NCBI GenBank assembly: GCA_024401555.1
Contig: JAKSKV010000003.1
Span: forward strand, 62,001-126,000
Source of the DNA: Paludibacteraceae bacterium
GTDB taxonomy: Bacteria > Bacteroidota > Bacteroidia > Bacteroidales > Paludibacteraceae
Length of the DNA stretch: 64,000 bases
Direction: 5' to 3'
The position numbers were made by a program, and so were the translations under genes. Position 1 is the stretch's first letter; the number at the start of each line of letters is the position of its first letter. The notes under the pieces were generated by a model. That model saw nothing but the letters and a program-made list of their open reading frames with translations. It was not told where the DNA came from and did no database searches. Shown piece after piece: positions 1 through 38,634 of this stretch.

Positions 1-3000
1 ACAAGGTAATCGTACACGAGTTGCCTAAGCTCCACATCGAGGCGGCATTCGACAGAATCTGTCAGGCCGACATCGATACACTTTGGGTAGTCAACGATAA
101 TCCTAAGGATATCCACGGTGCTCAAGTATTGTTCAAATCATACTCTTGGGGTGATGGAGAGACCGTGGAGAAGATTACCTCCAGCGTGAAGAACAACAAA
201 CGTTTCGACGTGATCGTCCAAGACATCTACGGATGCGTAGGATCGGCCGAGAAGGATATCGAGATCAAGCCATATCCTAAATTGAAGATCAACGCACCTG
301 AATACATCTGTTTGGGCGATGACAACACAGTATCCGTATCAGGCGCCAACACCTACGTTTGGAACGACGGATCGACGAAGAGCGAATTCACCAACACATT
401 GCGCCGCGACACCACCTACTCCGTAACCGGAGATTTAGAGGGATGTAAGTCCGACACCACCTTCAGCGTAGGCGTTAGACAGTTGCCTAATGTTTGGATC
501 TCTTCCAATGTGGATGCCATCTGTTTGAAGGAGAGCATTACCATGAAGGCGAACGGCGCAAGCACCTATGTTTGGAATGTTCGTGACGTCAACACCAACA
601 GAATGGATGGTGAGACAGCGACAGCGATCCCTACCAAGGCAGACCAAACTTACCGCTATAGCATCATCGGTACCGATGAGTTCGGTTGTAAGAATGTCGA
701 TACCTTCGACGTGAAGGTTTATCCATTGCCAACCATCGACATCCACGGAGAGACCGAGATCTGTCAAGGCGATATGGATACCTTGTGGGTAACCGGTGAC
801 GCCACCCGTTACACATGGACCAACACGGGAGAGCAGACCGACACAATCTTCCCTATCGTAGACACCAAGACAACCTATAATGTCACCGCGGAGTCTAACA
901 TGGGATGTATCGCGAAGAACAAGATTACCGTAAGCGTCAAGCCTTACCCTGTCATCAACATCAACGCACCTAAGTATGTCTGCTTCGGCGACAAGGCCAT
1001 TTTGGAGGCATCCGGCGCCAACAGTTACATCTGGCAAAACGACGAGACCTTGACGGGCAAGCGATTGACAGAGACACCTGAAAAGGGCAAGTCATACAGT
1101 GTCAAAGGAACCACCAACGGATGTACCAGCGAGGCCAACGTCTATGTGGATGTGAACCCACTTCCATACGTATGGATCACCGGTGAGGAGAGCCTCTGCT
1201 ACGGAGACAACACCACATTGTCCGCTAATGGTGCCACCACTTATTTGTGGAGCACAAGACAATTGGGCGAACATATCACCGTAACGCCAACAGACACCTT
1301 CAAGACTACGGCCTACTCCGTAATCGGTACCGACGCGTTCGGATGTAAAAACACCGATACATTCAACATCACCGTTCATCCTCTCCCTAATGTGAGAATC
1401 CTCGGCGACAACGCTACATGTAACGGAGATGCGACCCACTTGGAGGCTATCGGTGCGAAGGAGTATATTTGGAACACATCCGAGCAAGGTGCCCACATCT
1501 ACCCTATCATCACGGCGAACAAGACATTCACCGTTGAGGGTACGGACGAATATGGATGTAAGAACACATTCGACAAGACCGTTACCCGCAAGTACTACCC
1601 AGTATTGAGTTACACCGCACCATCAGCCGTCTGCGACGGTAACGAGGTAACCATCTCCGTAACAGGTGCCTCTCGATATACCTGGAGCGGTAGCGAATCA
1701 TTGGTGGCAAAGGGAGGAACCATGAAGGATACCATCCGCGAGCGAACCATCTACACCGTATCCGGTGAAGAGAATGGTTGTACGACCACAAGGGATATCG
1801 TCATCGACAAATACGAGTTGCCTACCATCTGGGTGAATGGTCCAGCCATCGTCTGCCAAGGCAGTCAGTTGAAGTTGACAGCCACAGGAGGTAGCACCTA
1901 CACATGGACTTGGGGTAACAACATCTACCGCAACGCTTCGATGAGCGACAAGCCAGAGAATACAACCACTTACAAGGTTGTCGGAATCGACTCGCACAAG
2001 TGTACGAACTCCGCGGAGCACACCGTAGTAGTCAACCCTGCGCCTAAGTTCTCTATCGATGGTGCGACAGAGGTCTGCGAGGGAACCGCGACCACACTCA
2101 CCGCTGTATCCGAGGACAACTCACAACTCAGCTACAGCTGGAGCAACGGTGCCGGTACACCAAGCATCACCCCTATGATCAACACAACCACTAAGTTCAT
2201 CATCGTAGGTAAGGATGCCAACAATTGCGAAAGCACCATCACACACACGGTTGTCAGCCAAAAGATTCCAGTCGTAAGCTGGAACGGTAAGACAACATTG
2301 TGCCAAAACAAGAACTTGACATTGACCGCGACAGGTGCTAAGTCTTACATCTGGACTTGCAGCGAGAGACCGAACACCACCTTGTCAACCACCAATGTGA
2401 TGACAGACTACCCAAGCACAAGCGCTGTCTATACTTTGGTAGGATCAAGTAATGGTTGTAGCGCGGAGCCAATCAACATTCCAGTAAACGTGTTGCCTAA
2501 TCCAAGTATGACCTACCAAGGAAATACCACGATCTGCGAGGGCAACCAATTGACACTCACCGCTTATGGAGCAAGTCAATACCAATGGAGTACTGGTTCC
2601 GTCAACAGAGTGATGACTACGACACCTCCTGCGGGAGACACCATCATCACCGTCACCGGTACAGACAACAACAGATGTCAAACTACATTGGAGATTCCTG
2701 TAAAGGTGAACCCAATGCCAGTATTCACCGTAGAGGGTAACACCAACGTATGTAAGGGCGAGTACACCACCTTGGTGGCTAACGGTAACGCACAAACCTA
2801 CTACTGGGGTTACCAAACACCGATCTACGACAAGAACATCAGTAACAACGGCATGCCGATAGCGGTTCAAATCGAGACACCAACCTACGTATTCGCCAAG
2901 GGTGTTGACAACAATGGTTGTGAGAGCGAGATTTCATTGCCTATCAACTTGTTGACTCCTCCTATCGTGAAGTACGAAGGCAACACCACAGTCTGCTTGG

Positions 3001-3640
3001 GTGAGTCCATCGAGCTCCAAGCTTCCGGTAACGCGAAGAAGTACTTCTGGAGCACCGACGGTGGCGTCACCAAGAAAGAGGGCAATCCATTCACCTTCAC
3101 GCCTGAGGGTGTAACCAGAATCATCCTCTCCGGAGAGGCGGACAACGGATGTGTGACATCCAACGAAATCTACATCGAGACCAATGTGGCGCCTAATGTG
3201 GATATCTACGGAGACTCAGTCATCTGTGAAGGCGAGATCGCGACACTTGTGGCCGACGGTGCGGCACACTTCGTATGGCAAGACGCCGCCACAAACAAGG
3301 TGGAGGAAGGCAGATCCATCACCAGATCTGGATTGAAGCCAGGTGCCAACAAGTTCTACATCACGGGTACCACAATCAACGATTGTAAGAACACGAAGGA
3401 GTTCACCTTGTTGGTACACGCCAACCCAACTGTGAAGATCCACGACACCATCACCGGTTGTCCGATGACAGAGACCACCGCGGAATTGACGGTGAAGGAT
3501 CCGAACATCCTCTGGTGTGAGTGGAGCAGCTTCCCTATCCACGGCGATATCATCAGTAACTCATCCAAGAAGGTGATCGCAACGATCACAGAGCCTACTG
3601 AGGTTTACGTGACGGCTATCGACGGTAACGGATGTAAGGC
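1..3640 (+). repeat. Protein repeat array of gene 1 (16 repeats, three-domain periodicity)
   Basis: Sixteen Cys-paired repeats were counted by eye. The subtype entered by YP/IP/PP and closed by a short x-x-G-C segment (for example GTTNGCT) recurs every third repeat, beginning near 272, 945, 1596, 2265 and 2958. The spacing is 651-693 bp. The two repeats between them start mostly with LP or another x-P pair and usually close with a D-containing GC motif. Confidence 0.8.
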
Positions 3641-4211
3641 ATACGACACATTGATGGTGGACGCTTTGAAGTTCAACCCTATCAAATTCGATGTCACGCC
3701 AACCATCATCGATAGCAAGAACAATACGATCGAGATGACCGGAATCTTCCCAGAGACACACAACTGGACCTGGGATACCGACGACAACACGGATGACAAG
3801 AGGGGCCAAAGCGTGAAGTACGCCTTCACCAACCCAAGCACAAGGGATAGCTTCCTAATCACCGCCAGAGCGATCGACGAGAAGGGCTGTCTATACGAAG
3901 GTGATACCATCGTATATGTCTGGAAAGATTTCTGGGCACCAAACGCCTTCACGCCAAATGATGATGACATCAATGATGGATTCCACTTCTTAGGTACCGA
4001 GTTCATGACTGACTTCCACTTCATCATCTACGACCGTACAGGACGTATCGTATTCGAGGGCAACGACCGCAACGCCAAGTGGGACGGCCGCGACCTAAAC
4101 GGCAACTTATGTCCTTGGGGCGTTTACGGATATGTGGTTGACTTCAAGAGTGAATACAAGGGTATCGACAAGCAAGATACCCGAAAAGGCACTATCACGC
4201 TGATCAGGTAA
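1..4211 (+). CDS. Giant Ig/PKD-like repeat surface protein, T9SS type B tail (5' truncated)
   Basis: The reading frame is open from the left edge (first full codon at position 3), so the start and any signal peptide lie outside. About 16 repeats of roughly 75-85 residues follow. Each starts with a Pro-containing linker (LP, YP, NP), has a Cys-x-Gly-type motif, a Y-x-W core and a closing Gly-Cys, typical of Ig/PKD-like beta-sandwich domains in Bacteroidota surface proteins. The end carries DFWAPNAFTPN, a D-R-T-G-R segment and a final LIR, matching the gliding-motility-associated (CHU_C) T9SS type B sorting domain. The protein is therefore inferred to be exported by T9SS and attached to the surface as an adhesin or filament; its ligand is unknown. 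It is a tandem paralogue of the next gene, with matching last three repeats and sorting domain, and is followed by a strong terminator. Confidence 0.9.
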   Translation, partial: KVIVHELPKLHIEAAFDRICQADIDTLWVVNDNPKDIHGAQVLFKSYSWGDGETVEKITSSVKNNKRFDVIVQDIYGCVGSAEKDIEIKPYPKLKINAPEYICLGDDNTVSVSGANTYVWNDGSTKSEFTNTLRRDTTYSVTGDLEGCKSDTTFSVGVRQLPNVWISSNVDAICLKESITMKANGASTYVWNVRDVNTNRMDGETATAIPTKADQTYRYSIIGTDEFGCKNVDTFDVKVYPLPTIDIHGETEICQGDMDTLWVTGDATRYTWTNTGEQTDTIFPIVDTKTTYNVTAESNMGCIAKNKITVSVKPYPVININAPKYVCFGDKAILEASGANSYIWQNDETLTGKRLTETPEKGKSYSVKGTTNGCTSEANVYVDVNPLPYVWITGEESLCYGDNTTLSANGATTYLWSTRQLGEHITVTPTDTFKTTAYSVIGTDAFGCKNTDTFNITVHPLPNVRILGDNATCNGDATHLEAIGAKEYIWNTSEQGAHIYPIITANKTFTVEGTDEYGCKNTFDKTVTRKYYPVLSYTAPSAVCDGNEVTISVTGASRYTWSGSESLVAKGGTMKDTIRERTIYTVSGEENGCTTTRDIVIDKYELPTIWVNGPAIVCQGSQLKLTATGGSTYTWTWGNNIYRNASMSDKPENTTTYKVVGIDSHKCTNSAEHTVVVNPAPKFSIDGATEVCEGTATTLTAVSEDNSQLSYSWSNGAGTPSITPMINTTTKFIIVGKDANNCESTITHTVVSQKIPVVSWNGKTTLCQNKNLTLTATGAKSYIWTCSERPNTTLSTTNVMTDYPSTSAVYTLVGSSNGCSAEPINIPVNVLPNPSMTYQGNTTICEGNQLTLTAYGASQYQWSTGSVNRVMTTTPPAGDTIITVTGTDNNRCQTTLEIPVKVNPMPVFTVEGNTNVCKGEYTTLVANGNAQTYYWGYQTPIYDKNISNNGMPIAVQIETPTYVFAKGVDNNGCESEISLPINLLTPPIVKYEGNTTVCLGESIELQASGNAKKYFWSTDGGVTKKEGNPFTFTPEGVTRIILSGEADNGCVTSNEIYIETNVAPNVDIYGDSVICEGEIATLVADGAAHFVWQDAATNKVEEGRSITRSGLKPGANKFYITGTTINDCKNTKEFTLLVHANPTVKIHDTITGCPMTETTAELTVKDPNILWCEWSSFPIHGDIISNSSKKVIATITEPTEVYVTAIDGNGCKAYDTLMVDALKFNPIKFDVTPTIIDSKNNTIEMTGIFPETHNWTWDTDDNTDDKRGQSVKYAFTNPSTRDSFLITARAIDEKGCLYEGDTIVYVWKDFWAPNAFTPNDDDINDGFHFLGTEFMTDFHFIIYDRTGRIVFEGNDRNAKWDGRDLNGNLCPWGVYGYVVDFKSEYKGIDKQDTRKGTITLIR

Positions 4212-4235
4212 AAAAGATTCAAATCGTTTCGTAAG

Positions 4236-4269
4236 AAGGTCGGTTGTCACATAGCAACCGACCTTTTTT
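4236..4269 (+). terminator. Rho-independent terminator after the first giant gene
   Basis: A perfect 11-bp stem (4236-4246 with 4255-4265) encloses an 8-nt loop and runs into six T residues. It separates transcription of the two giant genes, so the second probably has its own promoter. Confidence 0.92.
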
Positions 4270-4472
4270 GTCATAAGCTAAAATGTCCAACCAAAGAGGA
4301 AATGTAGATATCAAATTAGGGTGGAATTGTTTTAATATTCAGCAGTGAATAAATAGTAAAAGGCAATAAAATTGCACCATTTATAATTTGGAAACTCGAT
4401 ATTTTAACTTAAATTAGCAAATTGAATATAGTGGGTATGCTATATTGGTAAACCGCTTAGAAATAACTGCTT
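4270..4472 (+). promoter_or_regulatory. AT-rich leader/promoter region of the 8232-aa gene (no exact promoter match)
   Basis: This 203-bp stretch between the terminator and the start codon is very AT rich and has no convincing ORF. No exact TAnnTTTG box was found. Near-matches are TTATAATTTG at 4381-4390 (wrong internal spacing) and TATATTGG at 4441-4448 with a TTG 16 nt upstream. A promoter must lie here if the preceding terminator works, but I cannot place it reliably. Confidence 0.3.
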
Positions 4473-7400
4473 ATGAAAGAAACAAAGTTAGATCTCAAGA
4501 AGATTGTCAAGATATTTTGCGCCATACTTTTGGTATCTGTCGGACTATGCGACAATGCGTATGCCGTGAACGAAGATACGCCGGGATTGGGATTCCAGGG
4601 AATGACAGGATTCTCCACCACATGTGGCGACGGAGACAAAGGCGTTTGGAAGCGCTATTATGGATATTGGGGCCCTATTAACTTTGGTGCGACGCAGATC
4701 AACTCCGCCATATCCAGTTTGTACTACGGTACCAACCGCAACATAAACACGAAATACAGTTCGGAAGAAAATGGTTGGGTACGATTTGGCCAGCCCATCT
4801 ATGCGTACAGAAAAAATGACGGATCGTTTACCACAGATACCAAGCCATTTCAAAACGGGTCCGAAATTCCCAAAGGAGATGTCTCAATCATCAACACAAG
4901 GGAGTTGGATCCCAACAACAGGAAATGTACTGGCTATCCATTCTACACACAACCGGAGGGGTTAACAGCAGGACAAAAAGTCGTCAGAGTGGGAAGTACC
5001 GGGTATCCTGAAATTGGTTACGAATCCGGTAAAGTCTATGCCTATGAGAGAAGAGCAATGGCGGAACGATTGGTTTACACCTTTGACGTAACCGAAAACA
5101 GCACCCTCCTCACCTACCGATACGCAGCACTCATCGAGGAACCTGAAGGACAGGGAGAACACACCGGTGACGAACGACCAGGAGCACAATTGAATGTTAC
5201 CATCCAAAAGGGAGACGAGATCATCAAACCAGTCTGCAGTGAATTCAGCGTCAACGCGAACAAAAACAACACTCAGCTCGTCAAAATCCCTAAAAACTGT
5301 AGTGGAACAAACAACGATGTTTACTACAAAGATTGGAGCACGGTTGTGTACGATTTGAGAGACTACATCGGCTCAACCGTCAACATCGAAATCATCGTCC
5401 ACGACTGTCTGGTGCAGGTGGATGTTTGCCAAGACTGTCATAAACCATTGGGTTCGAGAGGTGCGTACTCTTGCGGATACTGCAGAAGCAGAAAAGTAAA
5501 AATCATGCCAATGGCCGGAGGTCACCGCGCCTACTGCTACTTCACAGCAGAGACCAGAAGAATGGAGATGAAGGTGGACAACTGTCCAAGCAACGATGTG
5601 GTCACCATCACCGCACCGCTCGGATTCAGCCACTACTCATGGGCAACTGGAGAGGGCGTCGGTTTAAGAACGGAACCAGGAAAGCCTTGGATCGCCTACG
5701 TCAATAGGTCAGAAATCCAAGAACACATGGACTACATCTGTACCATGACCGGAGACGAAGAGGACTGTAGCGCAATTCAAGGTATCGTCCAGTTGGCCAA
5801 AGATCCGCTCGGAGCAAAATTCTCCAAACGTATCGCCTGCGACAACGAGGTGAAATTCGTGAACGAATCCTACATCACCCCTGTCAAGCAACAAACAGGT
5901 GAAATCATCGAACCGGATGAAATCACCAAATACACTTGGAAATGTACGGACGGCATGGGACACAACTACGAGTTGGTCACCACAAAAAAGGATGAGACCC
6001 CTACCTATATTTTGGAATACACCCAAGAGAACAAAGGATACTACACCGTCACATTGGACATTGAGACCAAAAACGGATGTACCTCACACTACGAAGAGGA
6101 GATCAGTATCTCCCCTCGTGAAAACATCAGTATCGATGGTGAATTCAAAGTGTGCCGCGGAAGTGAGGCGAATCTGCAAATCTCCAACTACAACGATCCG
6201 GGCAACGTCTATACATGGTACAGGGTGAACGGCACCAGCAAGACAAAAGTTTGGGAAGGAACCGGCTACGAGTATTCTAAACTCAATGTTAAGCCAAACG
6301 GCAAAGAGAACTATACCGTAGATATTCTCCGCATCGAGGATATCACCTCCAACAACATTGTAGTCGATAAACGTAACTGTATCTACAGCAAAGATTTTGA
6401 AGTGGATGTCTATGAGATCCCAACCATATCCATCACGGGAACGGGAGGCAAAGCCAGCAGCATGACTGCCCGACCAAAGTATGTGGATATCTGCGAAAGC
6501 GAAGATAACGCCACTCTGACAGCAACAGAGACCACAAATCCGAAATTAGGCATCACCTCTTGGACATGGAGTGACTTGAACAACACGAACAAAGACATCG
6601 TCAGTCCGCAAGACACCACCATGTATTATGTCTATGCCAAGACAAAAGAGGGTTGTGAAGGAAAGGATTCCATCAAGGTCAATGTAAGGAAGAAACCAAC
6701 ATTAATCATCGACGGAGGTGACGAAATCTGTGTGGGCGAATCCATCACTTTGAAGGCGAAAAGCGCAGAAAATGATGTGACCGACGCGACCAAATACCAC
6801 TGGTATGAGGTAGATGGCAGCACAGAGCGCGAAATGGTTAAGAGTGCGGCAAAGGGAGGAAGCACCACCGACTCTTTGGTGATCATGCACACCACACCAT
6901 CCAGAATCGGAAGCGATGACTACATGTACAAATTGGTCGGAACGAACAAACACGGATGTACCTCTTCCATCAACAAGCAAGTGGTGGTGAGAGATATGCC
7001 TACCCCAATCATTCCTCAGCCATTGGACATCTGTAAGGGAGGCCTAGTCACCTTATCTATATATGGTGGAGACTCCACCATGATTGAGGAGAGCGAAAAC
7101 CAAAAGTACCAAAAGATACCTTATACCACCAGTTTAAAACCTACGGATGAACCGAAGTTCCACGTTTGGGTGAAGAATGTGTATAACAATGTCCAATGTG
7201 CGAAACGAGTTGAAGTGGATTACCATGTGGACAGCCTCCCTGCCATCCAAATAGAGGGAATCACGGAGATCTGTAACGGTGAAGATATCCAATTGACCGC
7301 ATCGGATGTCATGAACTACGGGGCTAATAAACCCAATAGCAGCGACTACACCTATCGTTGGACAGACCCTAAGGGAACCAAGACCGCGACAATGACAGCG

Positions 7401-22400: not shown

Positions 22401-25400
22401 GTCTGCGTCGGTACAGCCGCTTACATCCAAGTAAGAACAGACATCAACGCTGACTTCTTGTGGAGCACCCAAAGCACCAACAACTACATCCAGGAGATCG
22501 TGGAGAACAACAACACGACCTTCTCCGTCACCGCTACCAGCGAAAAGGGATGTATCTCTAACAGAGATTTCAAGGTCAATGTTTGGGAGTTGCCAACCGT
22601 AGTGGTCCGTGACACCGCCATCTGTTACAACGATTCAGTGAAATTGGTCGCTACCTGCACCAAGACAGATGTCAGCACAGATCCATCCTTGGTAAAGATC
22701 AGATGGAGCGTCGCCAATGCGGACAACGCATCCTACACCACCCCTCAATTGACTTCACCTACCAGCTACTCTGTTAAGGTGACAGACGAGAATGGTTGTA
22801 TCGGACTTGCGACAGCGAAGGTAGCCATCAACCCACTTCCAGACTTCGTCCTCACAGCGAAAGACGCTGTTTGTCGTGGCGGAGAGGCAGAGATCTACGG
22901 AGACAAGAGCAATCTCGTCTACAACTGGAACCACGAGGCTGACCCTGACAACTACGTCACCGAGGGATCCAGCAAGAATAAGCCATACATTTTAGCAGGT
23001 ATGGATCCGACCGGAACGGATACCACATTGACCGTTTGGGCGATGGACAACAACAAGTGTACCAGCAACCGAAACGTAACCGTACACATCAAGGAGTTCC
23101 CTGTCCTTAAATTTAGAATGGACACCAACTATGTATGTTACGGCGGAGACAAATTGGTTTACATCTCCGGTGCGAACGACGGATACACTTGGAGCATCAA
23201 CGGTGTTCAGAATGAATCAAAGAACAACTACATCCGATTGACCGATGTGAGGGAGCCTCAACACATCCATGTGGACGGCGTCACCAACAAGTGTGTCGCA
23301 CAAATCGACACCACCATCCAAGTATGGCAGTTGCCTAATATTCAAATCGAGGCATCCCAAGAGGAGCTTTGTTTGAACGACACCGTAAGATTGACCGGTA
23401 AGAATGGTATCTCAACAGGATACAAGTGGCAATTGAACGGATCAAGAGAGGACTTCATCGACGTGAAGGTCCGCAAGGCGGGCGTCAACACATACACAAT
23501 GACAGGTAAGGATGAGAATGGATGCGTGAACACCGCTTCCATCGACATCCAGGTTGACACATTGCCTGTAATTCGCATCGACGGTTTGGATTCTGTCTGC
23601 GTCGGCGGCATCGCTGACTTGACCGCAAGAGGTGCGAAGGATTACATCTGGTCAAGTCTGAACAACGACAACATCGGCAATGGACAAACATTCCAGCCAA
23701 CCATCGACACTGACACCCTCTTCTCTGTTTTGGGTATCGACGGAAATGGTTGTAAGGGAAGCGCGGAGATTGAGATGACCGCCAAGGCCTACCCTCTCCT
23801 CACCTACCACACCAGCACCGGTAAGGATTCTGTATGCTTGGGCAACAGACTTACCATCTATGTGAATGGTGCAGACAACTACATTTGGAAGAACGAAGAC
23901 AATACAGACAATTACCTCACTCAGGAGTTCAACGCTCCTAAGTCATTCACCATCACCGGTACCACGAAGGGTTGTGCGACCGACACCACCATCAAGATCG
24001 GTATCTGGAAGTTGCCTAAACCGCAATTGGATGCACCAGAGGCTATCTGCTTCAACCAAGAGGCTCAATTGTCCGTGTCGAATAGAGATATCCAAGAGGG
24101 CAGAACCAATATGCCTTTGAACATTAAGTGGAGACACAACGGATCCGAGGAGTACAACATCACCGACAGCCCAAGCGCCGACAAGTGGTACTACGTGACA
24201 TCGACCGACACCAACAGTTGCCGTCACATCGACTCCATCTTCGTAAAGGTGAACCCACTTCCATCCGACATCACCATCGATGGAGAGAACGCTATCTGTA
24301 AGGACTCTTCCGTGATCCTTACCGCCAACAGCGCCCAATTCAACGTTGTCCGTTATGCTTGGCACGCGATGGCAGACGGTTCAGACACGACGCTATTCAA
24401 CAAGTTCGGTCCATCCATCGAGATGACGATCAACAACGACAGCGTCATCTATGTGACCGCTACAGACAAGAACACTTGTCAATACACCACTTCTTACAAG
24501 GTGACTGCCAAGGCTCATCCAGTCTTGACACCAAGCGCGCCTGAATATGTATGTGAGGGAAGCAGAACCACCATCTCCGTAAGAGGTGCGACCGAGTATG
24601 TTTGGGACAACGGATCAACCAACAGCTACCGTACCGTCGAGATCACCAACGACACGACATTTACTGTCAGAGGTATGGCGAACGGTTGTGAATCCGAAGA
24701 GATCACCATTCCTATCAACAAGTGGAACTTGCCAAATATCGTCATCAGCACGCAAAACAACAAGTTCGAGATCTGTAACGGACAAGATAGCCTGACATTG
24801 ATCGCAACAGGTGGCGTAACGACTGGTTACACTTGGAACACCCGCGAGACCACCGACCGCATCGTCGTATCACCGCTCAACACTACCCGTTACGAAGTGA
24901 CCGGTACCGACGCGAATGGCTGTCAGAACAGAACCGACACGACCATCACGGTTCACCCATTGCCTATCATCGAAATCGTCGGTGACAATGCGATGTGTGA
25001 AAACGATACCATTGTTTTGGAGATCAAGACAAACGATGACCAAGCCGTAGAGAACTACACTTGGAACACCGACATCGCCGGATGGAAGGATATGACAATC
25101 AACAAGAACAATAAGAGTATCGCCTTGCCTATCACAGAGGATACCCGCTTCGAAGTAGTCGTAACCGACACATTCGGTTGCTGGAACAAGGGCACCAAGG
25201 ATGTGAAGATGAAGAAATACCCAGTATTGACCTTCCCTTCACCTAAACCAAACTACATCTGTATCGGCCACACCGCTACCATTACCGTAGAGGGTGCCAA
25301 CAGTTATGTATGGGCGGATGGCTCCACACAAAGAAGCTTCCTCACCAGCCCTACCCAAGACAGCACCTACGTTGTGGCAGGTACCACCAACGGTTGTACC

Positions 25401-28400
25401 ACAGTGGATTCCGTGAAGGTATTTGTCAAGGATCTTCCTGTCATCACTATCGAGGGTGACGGCAAGGGAGAACTTCAAGACTCCATCTGTTACGGAGACA
25501 CCATCAACTTGACCGCGAGCGGTGCGGGCGAGAAGGCATACTACACATGGAATACGGGTATCACCAACGATGTCTTGACCACCTCTCCTCTTGGTACGAC
25601 CAAGTACACCGTGGTAGGTGTGGATGAGTTCGGATGTTCAAACGACCAATCATTCACCGTATCCGTCATCTCATTGCCAGAGTTCTCAATCAAGGGACAA
25701 GAGTTGATTTGTCAGAACGACACCAACAAAATCTGGATCGAATACGAGGATCCAACCCTCACCTTTGAGTGGAACGACACCTATAAGAGCGTGGGCGACA
25801 CCATCTATCCTAAGGTGGAGAACAACAGCTCTTACCTTGTGACAGCAAAGGATCCTTACCAATGTAGCACTACCAAAAGTTTGGCAGTCAAGATCAAGCC
25901 TTATCCAGTCTTGAACGACGACGCACCTACCGAGGTATGTGACGGCAGCGAGGTGAAGATTACCGTAACGGGCGCCACTGAATATTTGTGGAGCGACAAT
26001 ACCGTCGGCAACACATTCATCAGTGTTCCAACCCAAGACACCGTTTACAGCGTACAAGGTACCACCAACGGATGTACCACCACCAAGGAGTACCCAATCC
26101 GAATCTTGGCATTGCCTAATGTGGTAATCAACGGTAAGAGCCACGACTTATGTAATGGACAAACCATGCCATTGATCGCAAACGGTGCGAAGAACTACGT
26201 TTGGAGTACAGGTAAAGCAGATAGCCGTATCGACATCAGACCGACATCCAACACCAAATTCATCGTGACAGGTACCGATACGAAGGGATGTTCAGACACT
26301 GCTTCATTCGATGTTTACGTCCGTCCAATTCCACAAGTATCCATCGACGGAGACTATGCGGTTTGTGAAGGCTTAGACGCTAAGCTCTATGTGGTCGCAA
26401 GCAGCAACACCTCTCCTTTGGATGTCTATACTTGGAGATACGATGGCAACATCATCGGTAACCAAGATACGCTTTACACGCCTATCACCACCAACCAAAA
26501 CATCAACTTGTATGTAAAGGATATTTATGGTTGCGACAACACAGCCTCAACCACTGTGAAGAGCAAGCCATTCCCTAAGTTGACCGTCAACGAGTTCGAC
26601 ACTGTCTGCGTCGGAAGGAACATCTCATTGACTGTCGCTGGCGCCAACGCATACGAATGGTTGGATAACGGTGTCGCTATCGACAACGAAAGCAACACCC
26701 TCAGCAAGATGATGGAGAACACCGGTTCGCAACAATACAAGGTACGTGGTACAACCGATGGATGTACCTCCGACTGGTATGATATGAACATTGAGGTGAT
26801 CGACCACCCAATCGTCAACATCAAGGGTGACGATGAGGTCTGCATCAACGACTTGGCTACCCTCAGCGCATCCGGCATCCACAATGGAACCTATATCTGG
26901 AGTGAGGGAACCCAAAACGAAACGATCACAGTGAAGCCAATGGCTACCACCACCTACTCCGTCATCGGTTACGACCAATATGGTTGTGAGGGTACCGCTG
27001 AGATCAAGGTGAATGTCAACTACCCACCAGTAGTGACCATCGACGCACCTAAGTATGTATGTTCCGACAAGGGAGACCTCACATTGACCGTCTCCAGCGA
27101 AAGCGACACTCAGGTAACCTACACTTGGGACGACAACAACTCGCACCAACAAATCAGACAAGACCATATCACTTCGCCAAAGACCTACCGTGTGGAGGCC
27201 AAGGACGCGAACGGATGTACCTCTTACGCTGAACACACGGTGGAGATCACCAAGATTCCGACCATTACTTTGACCGGTAGCACCAATGTCTGCGAGGACG
27301 AGCAAATCGTACTCAGCGCATTCGGTACCGCTACGGAATACGCTTGGTCGAACGGAACGAAGACCAACCAATTGAACACGCTCGCCGAGTTCAACGAGGC
27401 AACCGCGGTCGGAAACAAGTCAACCAGAAACTTCCGCGTCTACGCGATGTTGAACGGTTGTGAGAACTACTTGGATACCACAGTTGTCATCAACCGCAAA
27501 CCGACAATCGGCTACGAAGGACAAACCATCATCTGCGAAGGCGACAGATTGGAGCTCACCGCTAACGGCGCTCAATTCTACTCATGGAGCAACGGAACCA
27601 ACGCCCAAACGCTCGTGGCTCGTCCAACAGCCAACACCCGATACACGTTGACCGGTATCGCTGAAAATGGTTGCCGTAGTTTGATCGACATACCAGTAAC
27701 CGTCTTCCCAGCGCCTCAATTCGCTATCTCGGGCGACAACCAAGCTTGTCGAGGTGCGAACGCCACCTTGACCGCCATCGGATCAGCCATCACCTATCGT
27801 TGGGGATTCGGCACCGATCGTTGCGAGGATGCCGAGAGTGGTAACGAGGCCTCAATCTCCGTACCGGTTATCAACAGTGAGACGCAAGTATTTGTCCGCG
27901 CGATAGACATCAACAACTGTACCGCTACCAAGGTGGTTAAGATCAAGGCGTTGGAGCCTCCTACCCTCTCTTACAGCGGTGCGACGAAGGTCTGCGCGGG
28001 AGAGCCTATCAACTTGACCGCACAAGGCGCAAGTTCCTACTACTGGACAATGGGTGGCGACACCACCAGAGGTTTGAACTTCTCATTCCGACCAATGGAG
28101 AACAAGACCATCAAACTCCACGGTACATTGGGTGAGTGCTCTTCTGACATCAACATCTACGTTCAAGCTTCTCCTGCACCAGACTTGTCAATCACAAGCA
28201 AAGACGAGATTTGCCGAAACGAGGAGGTGATCCTCACCGCCAACGGCGCTTTGTACTTCGAGTGGAGCACAGGAGAGCAAACCAGAAGCATCTCCAAGGT
28301 ATTGACCAACTCAATGACCTACACCGTCAAGGGTATCGGTTACAATGGATGTAGCGCCGTCGTTTCAAAGACTGTCCACGTCAACCAATTGCCAGCAGTC

Positions 28401-29171
28401 AAACTCATGACCAAGAAGGATGGATGTCCGGAAACAGAGACCAAGGTTGACTTGTTCGCAAGAGGCGCCAAGATGTTCAAGTGGAGCAGTATCCCTTACA
28501 TCAGCGACATCGAGAAGAGCATGGAAGATACCATCCTCGGAGCGGTTATCGAAGAGCCAACTCAAATCATCGTTTACGGTATCGACGAGAAGGGTTGTGC
28601 CGGAACAGACACCACATTCGTGGAGCCAGTTCCTTACGAGCCAATCCAATTCCGCGTATCGCCAGGCGTTGTCGAGCATGACGAGGCAACCATCTCCATG
28701 AATGGTTTCTATCCTACCGAGGCATTGTGGTACTGGGATCCAGGAGACAACTCCGAGATCATCAACCGTATGAACGCGATGTACACCTATCCGAACGCCG
28801 GAACACGTGACTCATTCGTCGTAAATGTAGTGGCTGTGGATAAGAAGGGTTGTGAATACCATGGCAACACCACCGTCCATATTTGGAAGGATTTCTGGTG
28901 GCCAAATGCCTTCACGCCTAACGGAGATGGACACAACGACGTATTCCGTTTCTTAGGTACTGAATTGGTAACAGACTTCCACATCGTGATCTTCGACCGA
29001 AGCGGTAGAATCGTCTTCCAAGGCGACGATAAGAATGCCGAGTGGGATGGTACTTGCGACGGTAAAGAGTGTGAATGGGGTGTTTACGGATTCGTCGTAA
29101 ATTACAAGAGTTCATACATGGACTGGAACAAGGCTGACGAGTTCAAGGGTACCGTTACATTGATTAGATAA
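4473..29171 (+). CDS. 8232-aa giant Ig/PKD-like repeat surface protein, T9SS type B tail
   Basis: The protein opens with a Lys-rich stretch and a hydrophobic signal peptide (about residues 1-32, ending NAYA). A unique N-terminal region of about 500 residues follows, with a jelly-roll-like segment and a C319-x2-C322-x11-C334-x2-C337 knuckle. I counted 90 consecutive Ig/PKD-like repeats of about 75-100 residues, each with a first Cys after a beta strand and a second in a G-C motif, suggesting one disulfide per domain. The C-terminus has a PKD-like cap and a CHU_C domain (DFWWPNAFTPNGDGHND, final LIR) for T9SS export. At roughly 900 kDa it is probably a long surface fibre or adhesin; this is inference, as no ligand-binding domain is recognised. 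It has terminators on both sides. Lys codons seem to shift from AAA early to AAG late. Confidence 0.95.
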   Translation: MKETKLDLKKIVKIFCAILLVSVGLCDNAYAVNEDTPGLGFQGMTGFSTTCGDGDKGVWKRYYGYWGPINFGATQINSAISSLYYGTNRNINTKYSSEENGWVRFGQPIYAYRKNDGSFTTDTKPFQNGSEIPKGDVSIINTRELDPNNRKCTGYPFYTQPEGLTAGQKVVRVGSTGYPEIGYESGKVYAYERRAMAERLVYTFDVTENSTLLTYRYAALIEEPEGQGEHTGDERPGAQLNVTIQKGDEIIKPVCSEFSVNANKNNTQLVKIPKNCSGTNNDVYYKDWSTVVYDLRDYIGSTVNIEIIVHDCLVQVDVCQDCHKPLGSRGAYSCGYCRSRKVKIMPMAGGHRAYCYFTAETRRMEMKVDNCPSNDVVTITAPLGFSHYSWATGEGVGLRTEPGKPWIAYVNRSEIQEHMDYICTMTGDEEDCSAIQGIVQLAKDPLGAKFSKRIACDNEVKFVNESYITPVKQQTGEIIEPDEITKYTWKCTDGMGHNYELVTTKKDETPTYILEYTQENKGYYTVTLDIETKNGCTSHYEEEISISPRENISIDGEFKVCRGSEANLQISNYNDPGNVYTWYRVNGTSKTKVWEGTGYEYSKLNVKPNGKENYTVDILRIEDITSNNIVVDKRNCIYSKDFEVDVYEIPTISITGTGGKASSMTARPKYVDICESEDNATLTATETTNPKLGITSWTWSDLNNTNKDIVSPQDTTMYYVYAKTKEGCEGKDSIKVNVRKKPTLIIDGGDEICVGESITLKAKSAENDVTDATKYHWYEVDGSTEREMVKSAAKGGSTTDSLVIMHTTPSRIGSDDYMYKLVGTNKHGCTSSINKQVVVRDMPTPIIPQPLDICKGGLVTLSIYGGDSTMIEESENQKYQKIPYTTSLKPTDEPKFHVWVKNVYNNVQCAKRVEVDYHVDSLPAIQIEGITEICNGEDIQLTASDVMNYGANKPNSSDYTYRWTDPKGTKTATMTASPTTSTTYGITISNGKCSATENVDVTVFPTPRVIAEAFNGKVCPGGSDTLTAYYLVDDETKGVLKNCEWYTDKDRTHAATFSRPAKENGNNDTIIVSNITTPTTYYAYGQDKNGCWKLAQVTVYVKPLPTISIAGDTIICNTMNIALTAAGAETYTWYENGTTEVMKGSKLTLQAMMGAGDGEELIKKYSVVGVKEGCEGTSVKNVHIFREPTITIKGRNEVCFGDTAKLTASGSAAGKEYMWTGLGSTEASVTVAPIGNEQIFQVTGYNEKGCPGTAEHTIKINENPTLSITGLDPICYGEKASLINVLDLNGSTLKEVVWTMFDKKKSTEGTVVANPREIVLQDTTIFQVTAKNAAGCEATAEATIIVYPKPTITVTAPSICDGEEVVATVDGAATYAWFKGKAPSLTPTTETSTKYTDNNGLTTGNYYFRVIGYENGCPSDPKDTFLVINEKPIFTIEGDTAYCENEQMKLTTSTSAKEYLWSTGETERNITPTALLDITSISVTLTHATTGCTNTMKRGIIVKKKPELTINTLDNATQACKGEQLPMVAFDKNASSNARQYVWKEKAINEATATNYAGTLLTSNQYRYNYDSIVPIINQTTTYTVEGTETHNIKLLNNDNLRCTSSAEVTIIANPVPEVKISGADSICYGLETNLIATNTNTSAIIQSWEWKSENEGFSNAGLSYTSTGAIKEKSEFTAIATTNNGCKGEATHTIDVYSDFNFTIKGDEYICENSAFKIYASPDAANKYKKVEDYRYSWAPQGGVSDTAKGFIYEKTDFTLTITDVNNCVKSFPSTVLFEKLPKLTLSQNESICEGQAVTLTATSDKDMQQFSWDWQANGGDPETHIKTGKNDEFSQTLTQSRTYTVTGIDSKGCEAQPEVIVVDPKLAPDLSITGVTNACEGSDVDIIAASSSNYAIKWYKGANSATGELISATTGNISSKDGVLSLKDLKNGTFNYAAVISNGACGTEKPFSLTVTPKPSVKLFSSKEGSSWADVNTIEICENDSVMVDARSTNADIRYIWNTSSKSAAKDTIHPSNDLTCIITVEDANHCTNNDTVNIIVNRNPILTINGRSNGDTTVCADANTFAEVLLVAGNGGGTLYEWKNEDGVTINLSGEKNNTAKVSINTPLVITLEGANEKLCPGKAKYTINTKEFPVFDAEDIEACQGDYASIKVTSGNADTYKWTWTENGETKSSNGASHTALLINDRVYKLSATKSGCTKELDKEIKAIVLPIPTVKSTDDQAICFGESLVLDLKAGSNAQRYAWSKGNGLTDNGNGSANITPNATGKHQYIVTGWSDKDCPASDTVFVDVNAKPNFIISGSKVVCAGNEFTLTSEEKDAYATTVTWSWTDNGVKKSHNGETLTTSLENTSEADITVTFKATVKSDLCEDSLFYPVTVKASPVIDVPAITTCENEATTVTIENATSVFWEFDNKTTGPSRVLSYEIIEANKAGINIIGYKNGCGTAKRIESITINPKPVISFAATNIKNNTTEGTGEICLNDKDVKITAKGEKANNQYIWKWNGEDGENTYAPTPKTSGEMTYTVTATDITTGCVSNKSYKLTVHDNPIIKVSDNGDDFEVNGKGAICINEPLTLKVQGLDNVNQYTWSSSPVVPNISSANGSDTYSIGAPSNLTQDARFTIVGTTNTGCVGTATYDLKVNKYPTINIISDSKCAGENVTVQIQGYTPGAQYNWGWDNNGQRDTATNATYVSQVLEKDTWFKVTASLNECVKVDSQKISVNKRPVFELDKKELSTCAGVATDIVTATSNIGYRYTWYDNARHILSSSPAGSTISRLPGQTPNGTTFYVAEATMSYGAVECSSTDTVMVDVIPRPRPSIVKSGAACVGNTIKWAAKGQDGSTYNWYIGQKTTPLTASGSGAFSLTGANNDTLVVTITEDFAPTTIYLEEINGNCRSELKEDKITKELKPHVEPVDNSPRCKGDGNKTLTLQGATSYTWLSVPGTPTGISYTEALEETKTYTVRAVSGACVDTVDITVYVNELPTIAIDGVGKRNSATGDTTYSCINDEVTLTATPSHPSVMYGTDNTEKGFSYKWDNKESENHKTFVRNATTTIPQTYSVRVTDQNTGCENVGKYTITGIALPIVNIGGDNSVCQNDPVSLKAETSKPVVSYAWNVKVNNIDQPTSEYATNGNEITYNHIDTIANGGHTYKFMASATDKDGCVGQSDPFTVTNKPNPLFDVHDTTACYGEVANLKVGDKSKADFYQWPDGTQGGSQWIGSETITENTTYEIIAELNGCKLSKNVKVDVLQLPTFTMDVVKQSNGTTLSKDAEGNVIICENDNKISILANHTSGAAAQSYVWRNFPDSTKSHLFQEPVKKTTYTLTMTDMNGCSNQMSQTILVNVPEKILIEGPDAVCQNGEATYTISGSGNYGFELQPATAGTMDINGNIITIKDVNASFKLKVSGRDAAGCDAEDVEKEVSMTPKPTITLAVTPESRSICSGDNIKMNVKAEQGISIQWEGLAAGFLDNNQTLYCKNEGVDNRDTFRVTATTTDGCVAKDSVIVTTHPLPIFTTESKDICYDTDATLSVSSSNSNLTYSWEGKNFTTSADSKSINISGVKSDENYKVVATDNNQCKRDTIVRVIVHNRPIVGISRTISGSDDKKICKDSLLTLVENNESSDYTHEWFSLSGSKKFALGNSGRTIDALITQDSTFRVVVTKLYNIVNDLDNSKNYTLGCQDSTDYTITKKDAPRFTVIADTVCNGSNAKVTIKSDETGVSYNWAWKSASQADFTTQSGGTTLSLNNVTEAIQIKTIGTKESCPADTIVNVLVHQKPMIDAMTLAPICIDKNTDVTPSITFDKTYNATNAAASYAWKANKDGNSMTEGADGLLNIKPNQIGERIYTLTVTDKNGCESSAPALLMVNALPEIVVKGETNVCPNTKANLTVNDFDAEKIKWYKREGETRTLLYTGNNFTPLIGTTAETYEVDVTDGNDCQATKEVKITVKSMPNIYPNGNKVICQGESTRITLIGNSGGTYKWLPNNGNSADSTLKPMTTTTYNVEATTANGCLDTIQFEIKVNSLPVVLINGKKSIDTIICLRDQVHMFASGADQYQWSNRSTGNAYEPSPIIDSKYWVVGTDNTTQCKDTAKYNVKVNPLPTVETTGDIYVCNGKDAHLEVKDANAELIYTWFTEADQVNSIGTGDNYDVSGVTATTNYVVMAAKAYANGFCHNTAIQKVIVKENPKPTITPAKSNVCDGDYVLLTATSSMPSSTFGWRGNSTTSSSIRVQINPMGNDTTFWAYTTKDGCIDSSSVTINKLELPKLSAKAVTVLNDDTICYNTSAELKAVATGGNGGYTYEWEKRNIESSEDDKATTYALTNTISAYGFPVKVTDDAGCVGKDTAIVKVKPLPIVTIEGDKTVCEGVEKTFTAKVSNGNPVSYNWMINGVETDNHEATQNVTIDDVKVLTVSVKTERGCENVSAPFTVNKWEKPNIAIMGDTILCAGESTTIRVSGAGSDASKYIWNGGNLAANTTGLSQNITPADANSADTKISYTVQGEDKNGCINEKAFNITINQRPSVLINGGNGGSQKICDNTSVELKAVANQTVTYKWNTTETEDQVTVKPITTTEYRVVVTNEKECKDTATHTLIVYERPIVTLEAPAIACKNSEVGMTAKSSRNDLTYTWSANVATTNGNQATIVMIGDETVSVEASYQVDDALTCRYEESKQIEVRDTPTVAIKYAEALCFGQDQSYQLESGSDKADFYIWPNTTNETSIAQYAESSHRNVGEYNTTIKAINRYSLATTSIKCEQTIPVRFVVNEIPEVKIDGPAFVCTGETVTLTVSENSGQVIDESKTVWSTGSADNGKMEIAVSPTMDAFYTATLTNIHNCSAEGKYDLSAHTTPKVSIKGETSYCQDSTANIYVDGNNLIFVRWTNKASGHSIEVGDSTGNTLLTSDQLKMSVVLKADSSYAVRAINNQNCAATGEIDLTTKSNPVLNMDAPAYTCKGNDVTISVSGATTYEWVNLSNTRSTYTEKALTEEKTFVVKGTTNGCTTKDSVTVKIWERPEIAIFDGEADTAVCYKESVTLVAKQVSGASAIASDKYQWQGLSTNANEITVTANNEQKYIVYGEDNNGCRDTAEIIVKVNPLPRFDFTYPNKLCDMQSGELEANKPEYGYVWGTVGKAETLTFPTTAGNTTHNVAIGDTTTFFALAKDDKGCISDTVKHTIMWKPNPDIVVTAPEYICYGTATSLSAEDVVTGSIYQTNFSWMTVDDVVLKSNGNNYASDVLKENTTFKIVGEKEGCKSDALKTINIWDLPKVTITDQATGLPNLAQACLDSEVKLVATVEDVPTPYTYKWDDKSTSSATTEVTDMTVLTPKKDMEQHIILVTDGNGCQNRDTINVHINPLPDFLVNGVADVCSDTTNKLFTTPITKAELNYNWYEDNSIITWEENGATMTATNRDTIYMPIEKDAVLVVEGSYQINGITCTNSQTFEVKSKTTPTIKIGTSDTTICYGNAVSLVVSGNSTRYDWTDGEGNSLNGNKYNDYTLIDTVWKKTTFIVEGELDGCKKQASVVVDIYDLPTINITADKPVICYGDNVTLTAEGGTYEKYQWKNVSNQSILSGNTDVITESPKIQTNYAVIVTEKHMMNGVASYCENSDTFTIKVNELPVFDLKSNSPICEGDDAIITALTDSTNMSYQWEGDKEGEFTTIDHNAFATSKTGSVASYTYRVLAKDINGCISKDSITVGTKLFPVASIDFPENVCYGSQATVTGKNVAATYKWFDVQGEDSTALSSNNSFTTEFLNGITQGKQIVAKVTTQECTSDTAIIINPWALPLIQIERAPEITICEEFTDTLVAKGSDIPLVAPNQVYKWDNNAYSHLDSFEIAPTVSGTMFHLAGKDLHGCENFDSIKVNIEERPVFSLSSVPAVCANDTTIGWVEVKASSVQNLNYTWRDKNGNTVELFDSKNLASAHSATRQSGWLPITQDTTLFVTAKSIIEEGKKGCEESDQITIKADPYPNIIVVKDPGTVCVGTAAYIQVRTDINADFLWSTQSTNNYIQEIVENNNTTFSVTATSEKGCISNRDFKVNVWELPTVVVRDTAICYNDSVKLVATCTKTDVSTDPSLVKIRWSVANADNASYTTPQLTSPTSYSVKVTDENGCIGLATAKVAINPLPDFVLTAKDAVCRGGEAEIYGDKSNLVYNWNHEADPDNYVTEGSSKNKPYILAGMDPTGTDTTLTVWAMDNNKCTSNRNVTVHIKEFPVLKFRMDTNYVCYGGDKLVYISGANDGYTWSINGVQNESKNNYIRLTDVREPQHIHVDGVTNKCVAQIDTTIQVWQLPNIQIEASQEELCLNDTVRLTGKNGISTGYKWQLNGSREDFIDVKVRKAGVNTYTMTGKDENGCVNTASIDIQVDTLPVIRIDGLDSVCVGGIADLTARGAKDYIWSSLNNDNIGNGQTFQPTIDTDTLFSVLGIDGNGCKGSAEIEMTAKAYPLLTYHTSTGKDSVCLGNRLTIYVNGADNYIWKNEDNTDNYLTQEFNAPKSFTITGTTKGCATDTTIKIGIWKLPKPQLDAPEAICFNQEAQLSVSNRDIQEGRTNMPLNIKWRHNGSEEYNITDSPSADKWYYVTSTDTNSCRHIDSIFVKVNPLPSDITIDGENAICKDSSVILTANSAQFNVVRYAWHAMADGSDTTLFNKFGPSIEMTINNDSVIYVTATDKNTCQYTTSYKVTAKAHPVLTPSAPEYVCEGSRTTISVRGATEYVWDNGSTNSYRTVEITNDTTFTVRGMANGCESEEITIPINKWNLPNIVISTQNNKFEICNGQDSLTLIATGGVTTGYTWNTRETTDRIVVSPLNTTRYEVTGTDANGCQNRTDTTITVHPLPIIEIVGDNAMCENDTIVLEIKTNDDQAVENYTWNTDIAGWKDMTINKNNKSIALPITEDTRFEVVVTDTFGCWNKGTKDVKMKKYPVLTFPSPKPNYICIGHTATITVEGANSYVWADGSTQRSFLTSPTQDSTYVVAGTTNGCTTVDSVKVFVKDLPVITIEGDGKGELQDSICYGDTINLTASGAGEKAYYTWNTGITNDVLTTSPLGTTKYTVVGVDEFGCSNDQSFTVSVISLPEFSIKGQELICQNDTNKIWIEYEDPTLTFEWNDTYKSVGDTIYPKVENNSSYLVTAKDPYQCSTTKSLAVKIKPYPVLNDDAPTEVCDGSEVKITVTGATEYLWSDNTVGNTFISVPTQDTVYSVQGTTNGCTTTKEYPIRILALPNVVINGKSHDLCNGQTMPLIANGAKNYVWSTGKADSRIDIRPTSNTKFIVTGTDTKGCSDTASFDVYVRPIPQVSIDGDYAVCEGLDAKLYVVASSNTSPLDVYTWRYDGNIIGNQDTLYTPITTNQNINLYVKDIYGCDNTASTTVKSKPFPKLTVNEFDTVCVGRNISLTVAGANAYEWLDNGVAIDNESNTLSKMMENTGSQQYKVRGTTDGCTSDWYDMNIEVIDHPIVNIKGDDEVCINDLATLSASGIHNGTYIWSEGTQNETITVKPMATTTYSVIGYDQYGCEGTAEIKVNVNYPPVVTIDAPKYVCSDKGDLTLTVSSESDTQVTYTWDDNNSHQQIRQDHITSPKTYRVEAKDANGCTSYAEHTVEITKIPTITLTGSTNVCEDEQIVLSAFGTATEYAWSNGTKTNQLNTLAEFNEATAVGNKSTRNFRVYAMLNGCENYLDTTVVINRKPTIGYEGQTIICEGDRLELTANGAQFYSWSNGTNAQTLVARPTANTRYTLTGIAENGCRSLIDIPVTVFPAPQFAISGDNQACRGANATLTAIGSAITYRWGFGTDRCEDAESGNEASISVPVINSETQVFVRAIDINNCTATKVVKIKALEPPTLSYSGATKVCAGEPINLTAQGASSYYWTMGGDTTRGLNFSFRPMENKTIKLHGTLGECSSDINIYVQASPAPDLSITSKDEICRNEEVILTANGALYFEWSTGEQTRSISKVLTNSMTYTVKGIGYNGCSAVVSKTVHVNQLPAVKLMTKKDGCPETETKVDLFARGAKMFKWSSIPYISDIEKSMEDTILGAVIEEPTQIIVYGIDEKGCAGTDTTFVEPVPYEPIQFRVSPGVVEHDEATISMNGFYPTEALWYWDPGDNSEIINRMNAMYTYPNAGTRDSFVVNVVAVDKKGCEYHGNTTVHIWKDFWWPNAFTPNGDGHNDVFRFLGTELVTDFHIVIFDRSGRIVFQGDDKNAEWDGTCDGKECEWGVYGFVVNYKSSYMDWNKADEFKGTVTLIR
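6121..28640 (+). repeat. Array of 90 Ig/PKD-like protein repeats (30 triplets)
   Basis: Ninety repeats were enumerated by eye from their x-P linker plus Cys motif. From repeat 52 (near 19285) to repeat 90 they fall into strict A-B-C triplets. A repeats close with a short GTTNGCT-like motif and, through about repeat 73, mostly lead to B through a W-x-LP linker. B repeats close with GxDxxGC and usually lead to C via VNP-LP. C repeats usually lead to the next A via K-x-YP or A-x-P. Late A repeats start near 24515, 25218, 25902, 26571, 27255 and 27957 (spacing 669-703 bp). Earlier repeats keep the phase less clearly. Confidence 0.85.
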
Positions 29172-31671: not shown

Positions 31672-31687
31672 ATATTTTATTAATTTC
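31656..31687 (+). promoter_or_regulatory. Candidate Bacteroidota promoter for the beta-barrel gene
   Basis: A TTG at about 31656 is followed after about 20 nt by TAATTTCG, one mismatch from the TAnnTTTG -7 consensus. The expected start of transcription lies just upstream of the signal-peptide ATG at 31716. It overlaps the mutS2 stop. Confidence 0.45.
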
Positions 31688-31715
31688 GCGACATATATTA
31701 ATGTTTAATTCAGCC

Positions 31716-35371: not shown

Positions 35372-35445
35372 ATGAACATATAAAGAAAACTACATATTGA
35401 ATAACTCCAGAACTATAATTATCTGACCACGTCTATCTGACACGC

Positions 35446-38547: not shown

Positions 38548-38634
38548 AAATGCAGAATTACAATCGTTACGTATTTCAAAAGTATTAGGCCGTAAAGATA
38601 CAAAAAAACACACAATCTTATATTTTTATCAAAC

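Follow-up and report, generated by a model that had tools for sequence, protein, structure and literature searches.

A three-domain super-repeat in two giant proteins with T9SS type-B sorting domains from a Paludibacteraceae bacterium

Tandem-repeat surface proteins are usually thought to be free to change length. The A-band of titin carries super-repeats of 7 and 11 domains, and its giant Ig/FnIII arrays show domain subtypes that recur at a fixed multi-domain period. In titin, positional conservation has been tied to possible filament contacts (PMC10665226). SprB of Flavobacterium johnsoniae is a very large type-B substrate of the type IX secretion system (T9SS), anchored via a PorP/SprF shuttle (PMC12635249, PMC12618676). 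The grappling hook protein GhpA of Aureispira sp. CCB-QB1 (5898 amino acids (aa); PDB 9flp plus 7 more entries) is described as a T9SS-secreted protein (PMC11205867) that forms a heptameric fibre with filament-spanning chains (PMC13319060). GhlA of Litorilinea aerophila, a member of the Chloroflexota, is a giant protein of 49 Ig-like (DUF11) domains that forms a multi-chain hook filament with a probable C3 three-chain stem, and no super-repeat is reported for it in the sections covered (PMC13319060). We analyzed a DNA stretch of 64,000 nucleotides (the window; positions 62001-126000 of contig JAKSKV010000003.1, label C83) from the 3.5-Mb genome of a Paludibacteraceae bacterium, which contains two giant genes, gene 1 and gene 2. 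Like GhpA, their products carry a giant Ig_7-like array with a three-domain super-repeat, whereas the triplets of GhpA are partly identical, a sign of recent growth, and GhpA is known as a fibre while the giants here are known from sequence and a single-chain prediction. The gliding adhesin SprB has an adjoining shuttle gene, and the window giants do not. The likeness to titin, which is eukaryotic and intracellular and has other periods, is one of layout.

First, the layout of the two giants was determined. Segmentation with an iterated domain model (hidden Markov model, HMM) gave 93 Ig/PKD-like domains per protein, namely two leader domains, 90 array domains and one trailer, followed by a T9SS type-B sorting domain; the start of domain D78 of gene 2 was shifted 7 residues upstream by eye. 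An earlier note on this DNA had described two giants in tandem. Both are present, but gene 1 is cut by the window, which opens within it; the complete gene runs from window position -20751 to 4211, encodes 8320 aa and has 90 array domains. The statement in the same note that a total of 90 repeats equals 30 triplets is correct for gene 2 once the two leaders and the trailer are excluded. The Ig_7 model (PF19081) scored above its gathering score of 27.3 in the window part of gene 1 (104.4 bits) and in the C-terminal part of gene 2 (95.8 bits), and no Ig_7 match was found in the first 676 aa of gene 2. Close relatives were found in Paludibacteraceae or unclassified Bacteroidales genomes, with the rumen or hindgut named in several records.

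The three-domain super-repeat was confirmed in both giants. Similarity between domains had maxima at lags 3, 6, 9 and 12 in both proteins, which is the lag-three excess that the earlier note had proposed as its own check. The normalised alignment scores (x100) at lags 1-6 were 11.9, 11.4, 14.5, 11.6, 10.1 and 14.0 for gene 1, and 11.5, 11.0, 15.0, 11.4, 10.6 and 14.7 for gene 2. The z scores at lags 3, 6, 9 and 12 were 8.9, 7.3, 4.5 and 4.6 for gene 1 and 8.5, 7.6, 4.1 and 5.4 for gene 2, while lags 1-2 were near chance in gene 2 and lag 1 was slightly raised in gene 1 (z 2.2). The 3k contrast was reached by none of 2000 order shuffles in each giant, and it exceeded all shuffles in the N- and C-terminal halves alike. 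Neighbouring triplets were the most similar triplets (lag 3 > 6 > 9). The same contrast was examined in 25 giants from 13 genomes, and in all 25 it was reached by 0 of 500 shuffles. The register was also tested with phase models trained on one array half in three other species; in five giants these placed 28-33 of 46 domains of the N-terminal half and 26-35 of 43 domains of the C-terminal half in register per giant, with about 15 expected by chance. The starts of the A-type domains, five in gene 1 and six late in gene 2, all lay within 7 bases of the figures given earlier, and their measured spacing was 651-702 bases (651-703 in the earlier note).

We then analyzed what sets the A, B and C subtypes apart. 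In 24 giants, 720 domains of each subtype were examined, and among those with a recognisable G...C loop the short G-x4-C form was present in 299 of 356 A domains, 13 of 387 B domains and 22 of 326 C domains. The three g4 giants gave a similar picture, the short loop accounting for 55% of the matching A domains, 5% of B and 2% of C. The claim that A domains close with a short GTTNGCT-like motif was accurate as a rule from about triplet 18 on; in earlier triplets the mark was irregular, and triplet 12 had the short form at its C position. Triplet 22 was an exception to the short-loop rule, with only one A domain scorable there. The C signature, measured column by column over 534 domains from six giants, carries 8.7 bits, of which the final six of 71 columns hold 3.9; C-type ends have the form K-x-x-P, often with Y preceding the last P. 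For the A signature, 3.4 of 11.9 bits lie in nine columns round the FG turn and the second cysteine, and 2.0 bits in the first strand. Domains D78-D84 of gene 2 were also modelled by AlphaFold2 as a single chain, the input being this stretch and 83 additional rows in the same register, taken from the window and from named relatives. The secondary structure of the model (mean predicted local distance difference test score (pLDDT) 92.7, predicted template modelling score (pTM) 0.60) had an FG turn of 2 residues in 3 of 3 A domains and of 4-5 residues in 4 of 4 B and C domains. By the topology of the fold, strand G reaches the C-terminal end of the domain, so the FG turn should lie at the end facing the preceding domain, and the C-type end and the A-type turn would consequently share one C-to-A junction. 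The A and C phase marks thus sit at domain ends that should meet there.

The number of triplets was determined across the genus, which was sampled by 16 genomes, 12 of them, including the window's own, providing both giants complete. All 24 giants, from 12 species and both paralogues, had exactly 90 array domains between the D2 and D93 anchors, whose models were built from those same 24 proteins; a generic model misses a leader domain and gives 92 for seven of the genus giants, and the anchored recount gives 93. The full-length alignment showed no deletion of at least 30 aa, no insertion of at least 40 aa and no domain-sized indel in the array, and the sole larger insertion was near alignment position 223, ahead of the array, in the gene-1 clade. 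This count was kept over a tree with a total length of 10.06 substitutions per site, in which the gene-1 and gene-2 clades split before the genus radiated. Gene 1 and gene 2 of the window are 28% identical. When four orthologues of each were averaged, the best path paired gene 1 triplet n with gene 2 triplet n for all 30 triplets, and the best match of a triplet was its own counterpart in 26 of 30 cases.

Array sizes were next examined in the wider family, which was defined by its conserved ends (N-terminal region (NT), D1, D2, array, D93, CHU_C); an NT-related region was present at the head of the short and long members tested. The family was found in 48 of 358 genomes of the taxonomic family (E 1e-15), five of these being distant relatives (g57, g2). 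Domain totals from D1 to D93 in 83 members were 15 (41 members), 12 (10), 9 (2), 24 (3), 123 (3) and 93 (24), which correspond to arrays of 2, 3, 4, 7, 30 or 40 triplets. Because many members are orthologues, the independent evidence consists of six sizes and not of 83 events. Left out of the count as truncated or broken were G131C8, G014C28, G118C141, G101C125, G182C138, the G117 fragment and two partial G003 giants, as was a 676-aa protein of G015 with a family-like start but without a sorting domain; G140 and G153 stood outside the family count. The genus register, counted from the C-terminus, fitted other genera, with 66-79 of 120-121 domains in register in three giants of 10.5 thousand aa, 47 of 76 in G100 and 36 of 54 in G020, and it was weak or mixed in six g20 giants (30-38 of 75-80). 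It ran without a break through most of the arrays of g5 and g6 and shifted by one near aa 4000-5100 in g20, where an unrecognised domain could be the reason. In 56 short members with 657 array domains between them, 477 domains were also placed in register by the models of the window's genus (219 expected by chance). Among basal relatives, two g57 proteins had 6 domains, as did five of seven f76 proteins (there partly from weak matches), the other two f76 proteins gave 5, and the phase models found no clear A, B and C subtypes in the f76 and g57 domains.

The order of triplets was compared between the 40-triplet g4 arrays and the 30-triplet arrays. With all triplets included, the order score was reached by 2 of 500 shuffles for gene 1 and 0 of 500 for gene 2, but without the last eight triplets it was reached by 410 and 327 of 500 shuffles. 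The shared order is thus limited to the last eight or so triplets, so the 30- and 40-triplet arrays seem to have been separately expanded, by whole triplets. The comparison gave no evidence for a single ancestor lengthened by ten inserted triplets, since order is common only near the C-terminus. In three short members, the four triplets best matched the last five triplets of gene 2, which together with the C-terminal shared order suggests that a short ancestor gave rise to giants on more than one occasion, with growth taking place ahead of its last triplets.

Some related loci were recorded beside these counts. L098 (G009:C13:647001-662000) has three tandem family paralogues of 15, 12 and 12 domains, and the last triplets of the 12-domain paralogues most resemble the last triplet of the 15-domain paralogue. 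L102-L103 (G018:C39) encode adjacent proteins of 4331 and 3193 aa that open with the family NT and D1, the larger matching NT and D1 twice, and both are without a type-B sorting domain or a consistent A-B-C register. L188 and L189 are more distant proteins of different make-up.

GhpA was the best solved-structure match of the profile (E 0, 1564 bits over 13 stretches; 8 entries, 56 chains), although a match of this strength is expected of any Ig_7 array. The GhpA gene was identified as a 5909-aa frame, 99% identical to a 298-aa query stretch. Its lag-3 z score was 11.0, reached by 0 of 500 shuffles (44 domains from the 4641 aa read), and three successive three-domain blocks were identical and in tandem. 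Two other giants of the GhpA-bearing genome had lag-3 z scores of 7.6 and 8.3. In 16 arrays of at least 20 domains from other named records, the maximum fell on lag 1 or 2 in 13 cases and on lag 3 in L139, L145 and L160, and two of the latter also had raised similarity at lags 1-2. Individual values for Bacteroidota were z 8.9 for L139 (41 domains) and z 8.7 for L145 (56 domains) at lag 3, atop raised lags 1-2.

The means of secretion was analyzed from the sorting domains and the genes of the host. TIGR04131 scored 61.2 bits in gene 2 and 49.3 bits in gene 1 (cut-off 35), and PF13585 was over its cut-off in both. The host genome has SprA (SprA_N 523 bits), 14 PorP_SprF matches over the cut-off and 28 matches to sorting domains, 22 of them over the cut-off. 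A cognate PorP/SprF gene directly downstream of a type-B substrate is common, not universal. Such a gene lay directly 3' of the g4, g5, g6 and g20 giants in 6 of 6 loci examined. The host genes nearest to the shuttles of those giants adjoin the two 15-domain paralogues, one of them about 40 kb ahead of gene 1 in contig C83, and the two window giants may share one of these two shuttles. The C-tails of seven shuttles, six encoded next to a giant or a 15-domain paralogue and one on the window's own contig, end in C-P-[VIM]-[VI]-Y-W and have one cysteine. In SprF, the C-tail cysteines bond to GldK (PMC12635249).

With moderate confidence, we consider the giants to be long surface fibres secreted by the T9SS, in which the triplet is both the growth unit and the building unit. 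The N-terminal region and the two leader domains would be the likely distal, binding end; the stalk would consist of 30 A-B-C triplets of Ig_7-like domains, with the PKD-like trailer behind it; and a PorP/SprF shuttle at the outer membrane would take up the protein by way of its C-terminal sorting domain. The ancestral three domains would have diverged in sequence, after which array length would have changed by whole triplets. With every third junction different, a bend or lateral contact may repeat about every 250 residues. The length of an Ig-type domain is about 3.5-4 nm, and each protein, at 90 domains times the domain length, would extend roughly 0.3 micrometre from the cell. Surface display, with the N-terminal end outermost, and fibre formation are putative properties. 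Growth by triplet duplication, which the earlier note had put forward, agrees with the six sizes in 83 members that differ by threes, with the likeness of adjacent triplets and with the tandem blocks of GhpA, and on these sequence comparisons the triplet is well supported as the unit of stalk growth. The other half of that interpretation, a structural unit of three domains, was found only to be consistent with the end marks and the modelled FG turns. Because the A and C marks lie on two ends that would meet at the C-to-A junction, the triplet is probably a structural unit too.

Several results weigh against this reading. Plain identity was barely dependent on lag, being 31.2 and 31.5% at lag 3 in comparison with 29.2-30.0% at lags 1-2 and 30.5-30.7% at lag 4. 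The register was faint in the early array, where the lag-3 z scores of the N-terminal halves were 1.7 and 3.0, in comparison with 9.1 and 7.7 for the C-terminal halves (gene 1 and gene 2, respectively). The A signature is also spread elsewhere, with 2.4 bits in columns 18-30 and 1.4 bits in the C-end. Eight giants (six of g20, G020 of g6 and G100 of g5) were excluded from the size claim; group-specific models gave 57 to 83 matches in the g20, g6 and g5 giants, with unstable counts and gaps of up to 290 aa, and a census on weak D1 anchors gave 58, 72 and 75 for three of the eight, the other five being unanchored. In the basal genus g2 both proteins have 5 domains (one D2 inferred from a gap), which speaks against three as a universal rule, though outside the differentiated arrays. 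None of the 14 PorP/SprF matches of the genome lies within the 64-kb window, and no such gene is directly downstream of gene 2. The A, B and C models of the genus mapped poorly onto GhpA (21 of 44 domains in the best register, only one phase being distinct), so the triplets of GhpA may be of independent origin, and its partial orthologue L266 (10 domains) favoured lag 5 and not lag 3. In the G747 family (Saprospiraceae), 14 of 28 loci were testable with arrays of 9-16 domains each, and the best of lags 1-6 was 5 in six of them, 2 in five and, weakly, 3 in three. Because other arrays of this family prefer a period of 2 or 5, three is no general rule of the fold. Periods spanning several domains may be widespread among T9SS giants. 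Single loci with other periods were L277, L279, L284 and L285 (best lag 5, z 4.3-6.7), L291 (lag 2, z 4.7) and L269 (lag 7, beyond the ranked lags, z 7.7).

The register could instead be a fossil of growth without structural meaning, if three domains happened to differ at the time of expansion, recombination copied them in threes and the count became fixed as the diverged repeats stopped recombining. The longest exact DNA repeat within gene 2 is 19 bases, leaving little substrate now for homologous recombination between triplets, the similarity between triplets declines with distance and the register is at its faintest in the most diverged part of the array, all of which agree with such a history. 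However, the marks stay focused on particular domain ends despite about 30% domain identity, the same marks are present in the seemingly separately expanded arrays of 30 and 40 triplets, no lineage has lost one domain of 90 in either paralogue, and the distant fibre protein GhpA also has a three-domain unit. We regard the fossil explanation as unlikely, though one to be taken seriously.

The products of gene 1 and gene 2 might also lie side by side as two subunits of one fibre that require the same triplet number, the triplet being the axial repeat of lateral contacts. The 30 triplets in both paralogues of 12 species, despite the low identity of the window pair, and the collinearity of the two proteins triplet by triplet are as this arrangement would predict, and the heptamer of GhpA with its filament-spanning chains and the probable three-chain stem of GhlA offer precedents (PMC13319060). 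However, equal length also follows from one 30-triplet ancestor without later indels, the two genes sit on separate contigs in 3 of 12 species, and one giant of such architecture was found per genome in other genera, which makes the arrangement doubtful. An extended form of the idea, to which we also give little weight, is that gene 1 and gene 2 supply two kinds of strand in one multi-chain fibre with the triplet as axial repeat and 30 triplets as its fixed length, and that periods of 2, 3 and 5 could be a general geometry code in T9SS giants, with the grappling hooks as the solved example. If this were true, the shared fibre would be a bacterial counterpart of the super-repeat ruler of titin.

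It is improbable that the giants are SprB-like adhesins that travel along the gliding track and help the cells to move over mucus or plant particles. The type-B sorting domain and the PorP/SprF partners in relatives are as described for SprB (PMC12635249), but SprF has a Cys-x-Cys pair and the seven shuttle C-tails here have one cysteine. Large repeats can collapse or expand in assembled genomes, but an artefact of assembly or segmentation is hardly conceivable here, with repeats too diverged to collapse, the same 90 array domains in 24 genes of 12 assemblies and lag tests that agree between two different domain models.

Type-B giants, Ig_7 arrays and the super-repeats of titin are kinds of object already known. 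A three-domain super-repeat in a T9SS protein was not evident in literature titles and abstract openings, the paper on GhpA itself, which may describe its repeat unit, being outside that scope; nor were a fixed number of 30 triplets in two paralogues and family steps of three evident in the same titles and abstract openings. Compared with the variable length expected of such proteins, arrays of about 25 kb keep the same count in two paralogues genus-wide, and the countable family sizes step by threes. With such constant arrays one can test whether the length and geometry of fibres are encoded by the number and order of repeats in giant bacterial surface proteins, and the link to the solved GhpA fibre makes the structural side checkable on deposited coordinates. 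The features of the two giants are listed in Table 1.

Table 1. Positions of gene 1, gene 2 and their domains in the window
Feature	Position	Strand	Remarks
Gene 1, 3' part (C-terminal 1402 aa of 8320-aa protein)	3..4211	+	start at -20751, outside window
Gene 1 array domains D77-D92, end of 30-triplet array	27..3701	+	HMM segmentation
Gene 1 A-type domain D78	279..488	+	
Gene 1 A-type domain D81	951..1166	+	
Gene 1 A-type domain D84	1602..1823	+	
Gene 1 A-type domain D87	2271..2504	+	
Gene 1 A-position domain D90	2964..3194	+	phase model favours different subtype
Gene 1 trailer D93, PKD-like	3702..3929	+	
Gene 1 T9SS type-B sorting domain	3930..4208	+	CHU_C / TIGR04131
Gene 2, complete giant, 8232 aa	4473..29171	+	
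Gene 2 N-terminal region (NT), upstream of first domain	4569..5549	+	
Gene 2 leader domains D1 (Ig-like) and D2 (PKD-like)	5550..6116	+	
Gene 2 array D3-D92, 90 Ig_7-like domains	6117..28634	+	30 A-B-C triplets
Gene 2 A-type domain D75	24522..24734	+	
Gene 2 A-type domain D78	25224..25439	+	
Gene 2 A-type domain D81	25908..26117	+	
Gene 2 A-type domain D84	26577..26810	+	
Gene 2 A-type domain D87	27261..27503	+	
Gene 2 A-type domain D90	27963..28181	+	
Gene 2 D78-D84 (A-B-C-A-B-C-A), AlphaFold2-modelled stretch	25224..26810	+	mean pLDDT 92.7, pTM 0.60
Gene 2 trailer D93, PKD-like	28635..28892	+	
Gene 2 T9SS type-B sorting domain	28893..29168	+	CHU_C / TIGR04131

The surroundings of the giants were also inspected. 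On the 3' side of gene 2 (window 29242-32405) there are a MutS2-like gene (MutS_V, Smr) and then a small gene for an outer-membrane beta-barrel (OMP_b-brl_2). A like-sized frame and a shorter one, compared by size and end letters only, are present downstream of gene 2 in G009, G006 and G002, so the linkage of gene 2 with the MutS2-like gene looks conserved. A third type-B protein of 1976 aa is encoded at window 52325-58255; it has Ig_7 domains and a TIGR04131 score of 81.8 bits, and is without the family ends or the register. Glycoside hydrolases are encoded near the giants (window 33896-38613 and 62208-63953), namely a GH16 enzyme, a GH30-like enzyme that also matches GH43 more weakly and has a ricin-type lectin domain, and a GH44 enzyme with a Por_Secre_tail sorting domain.

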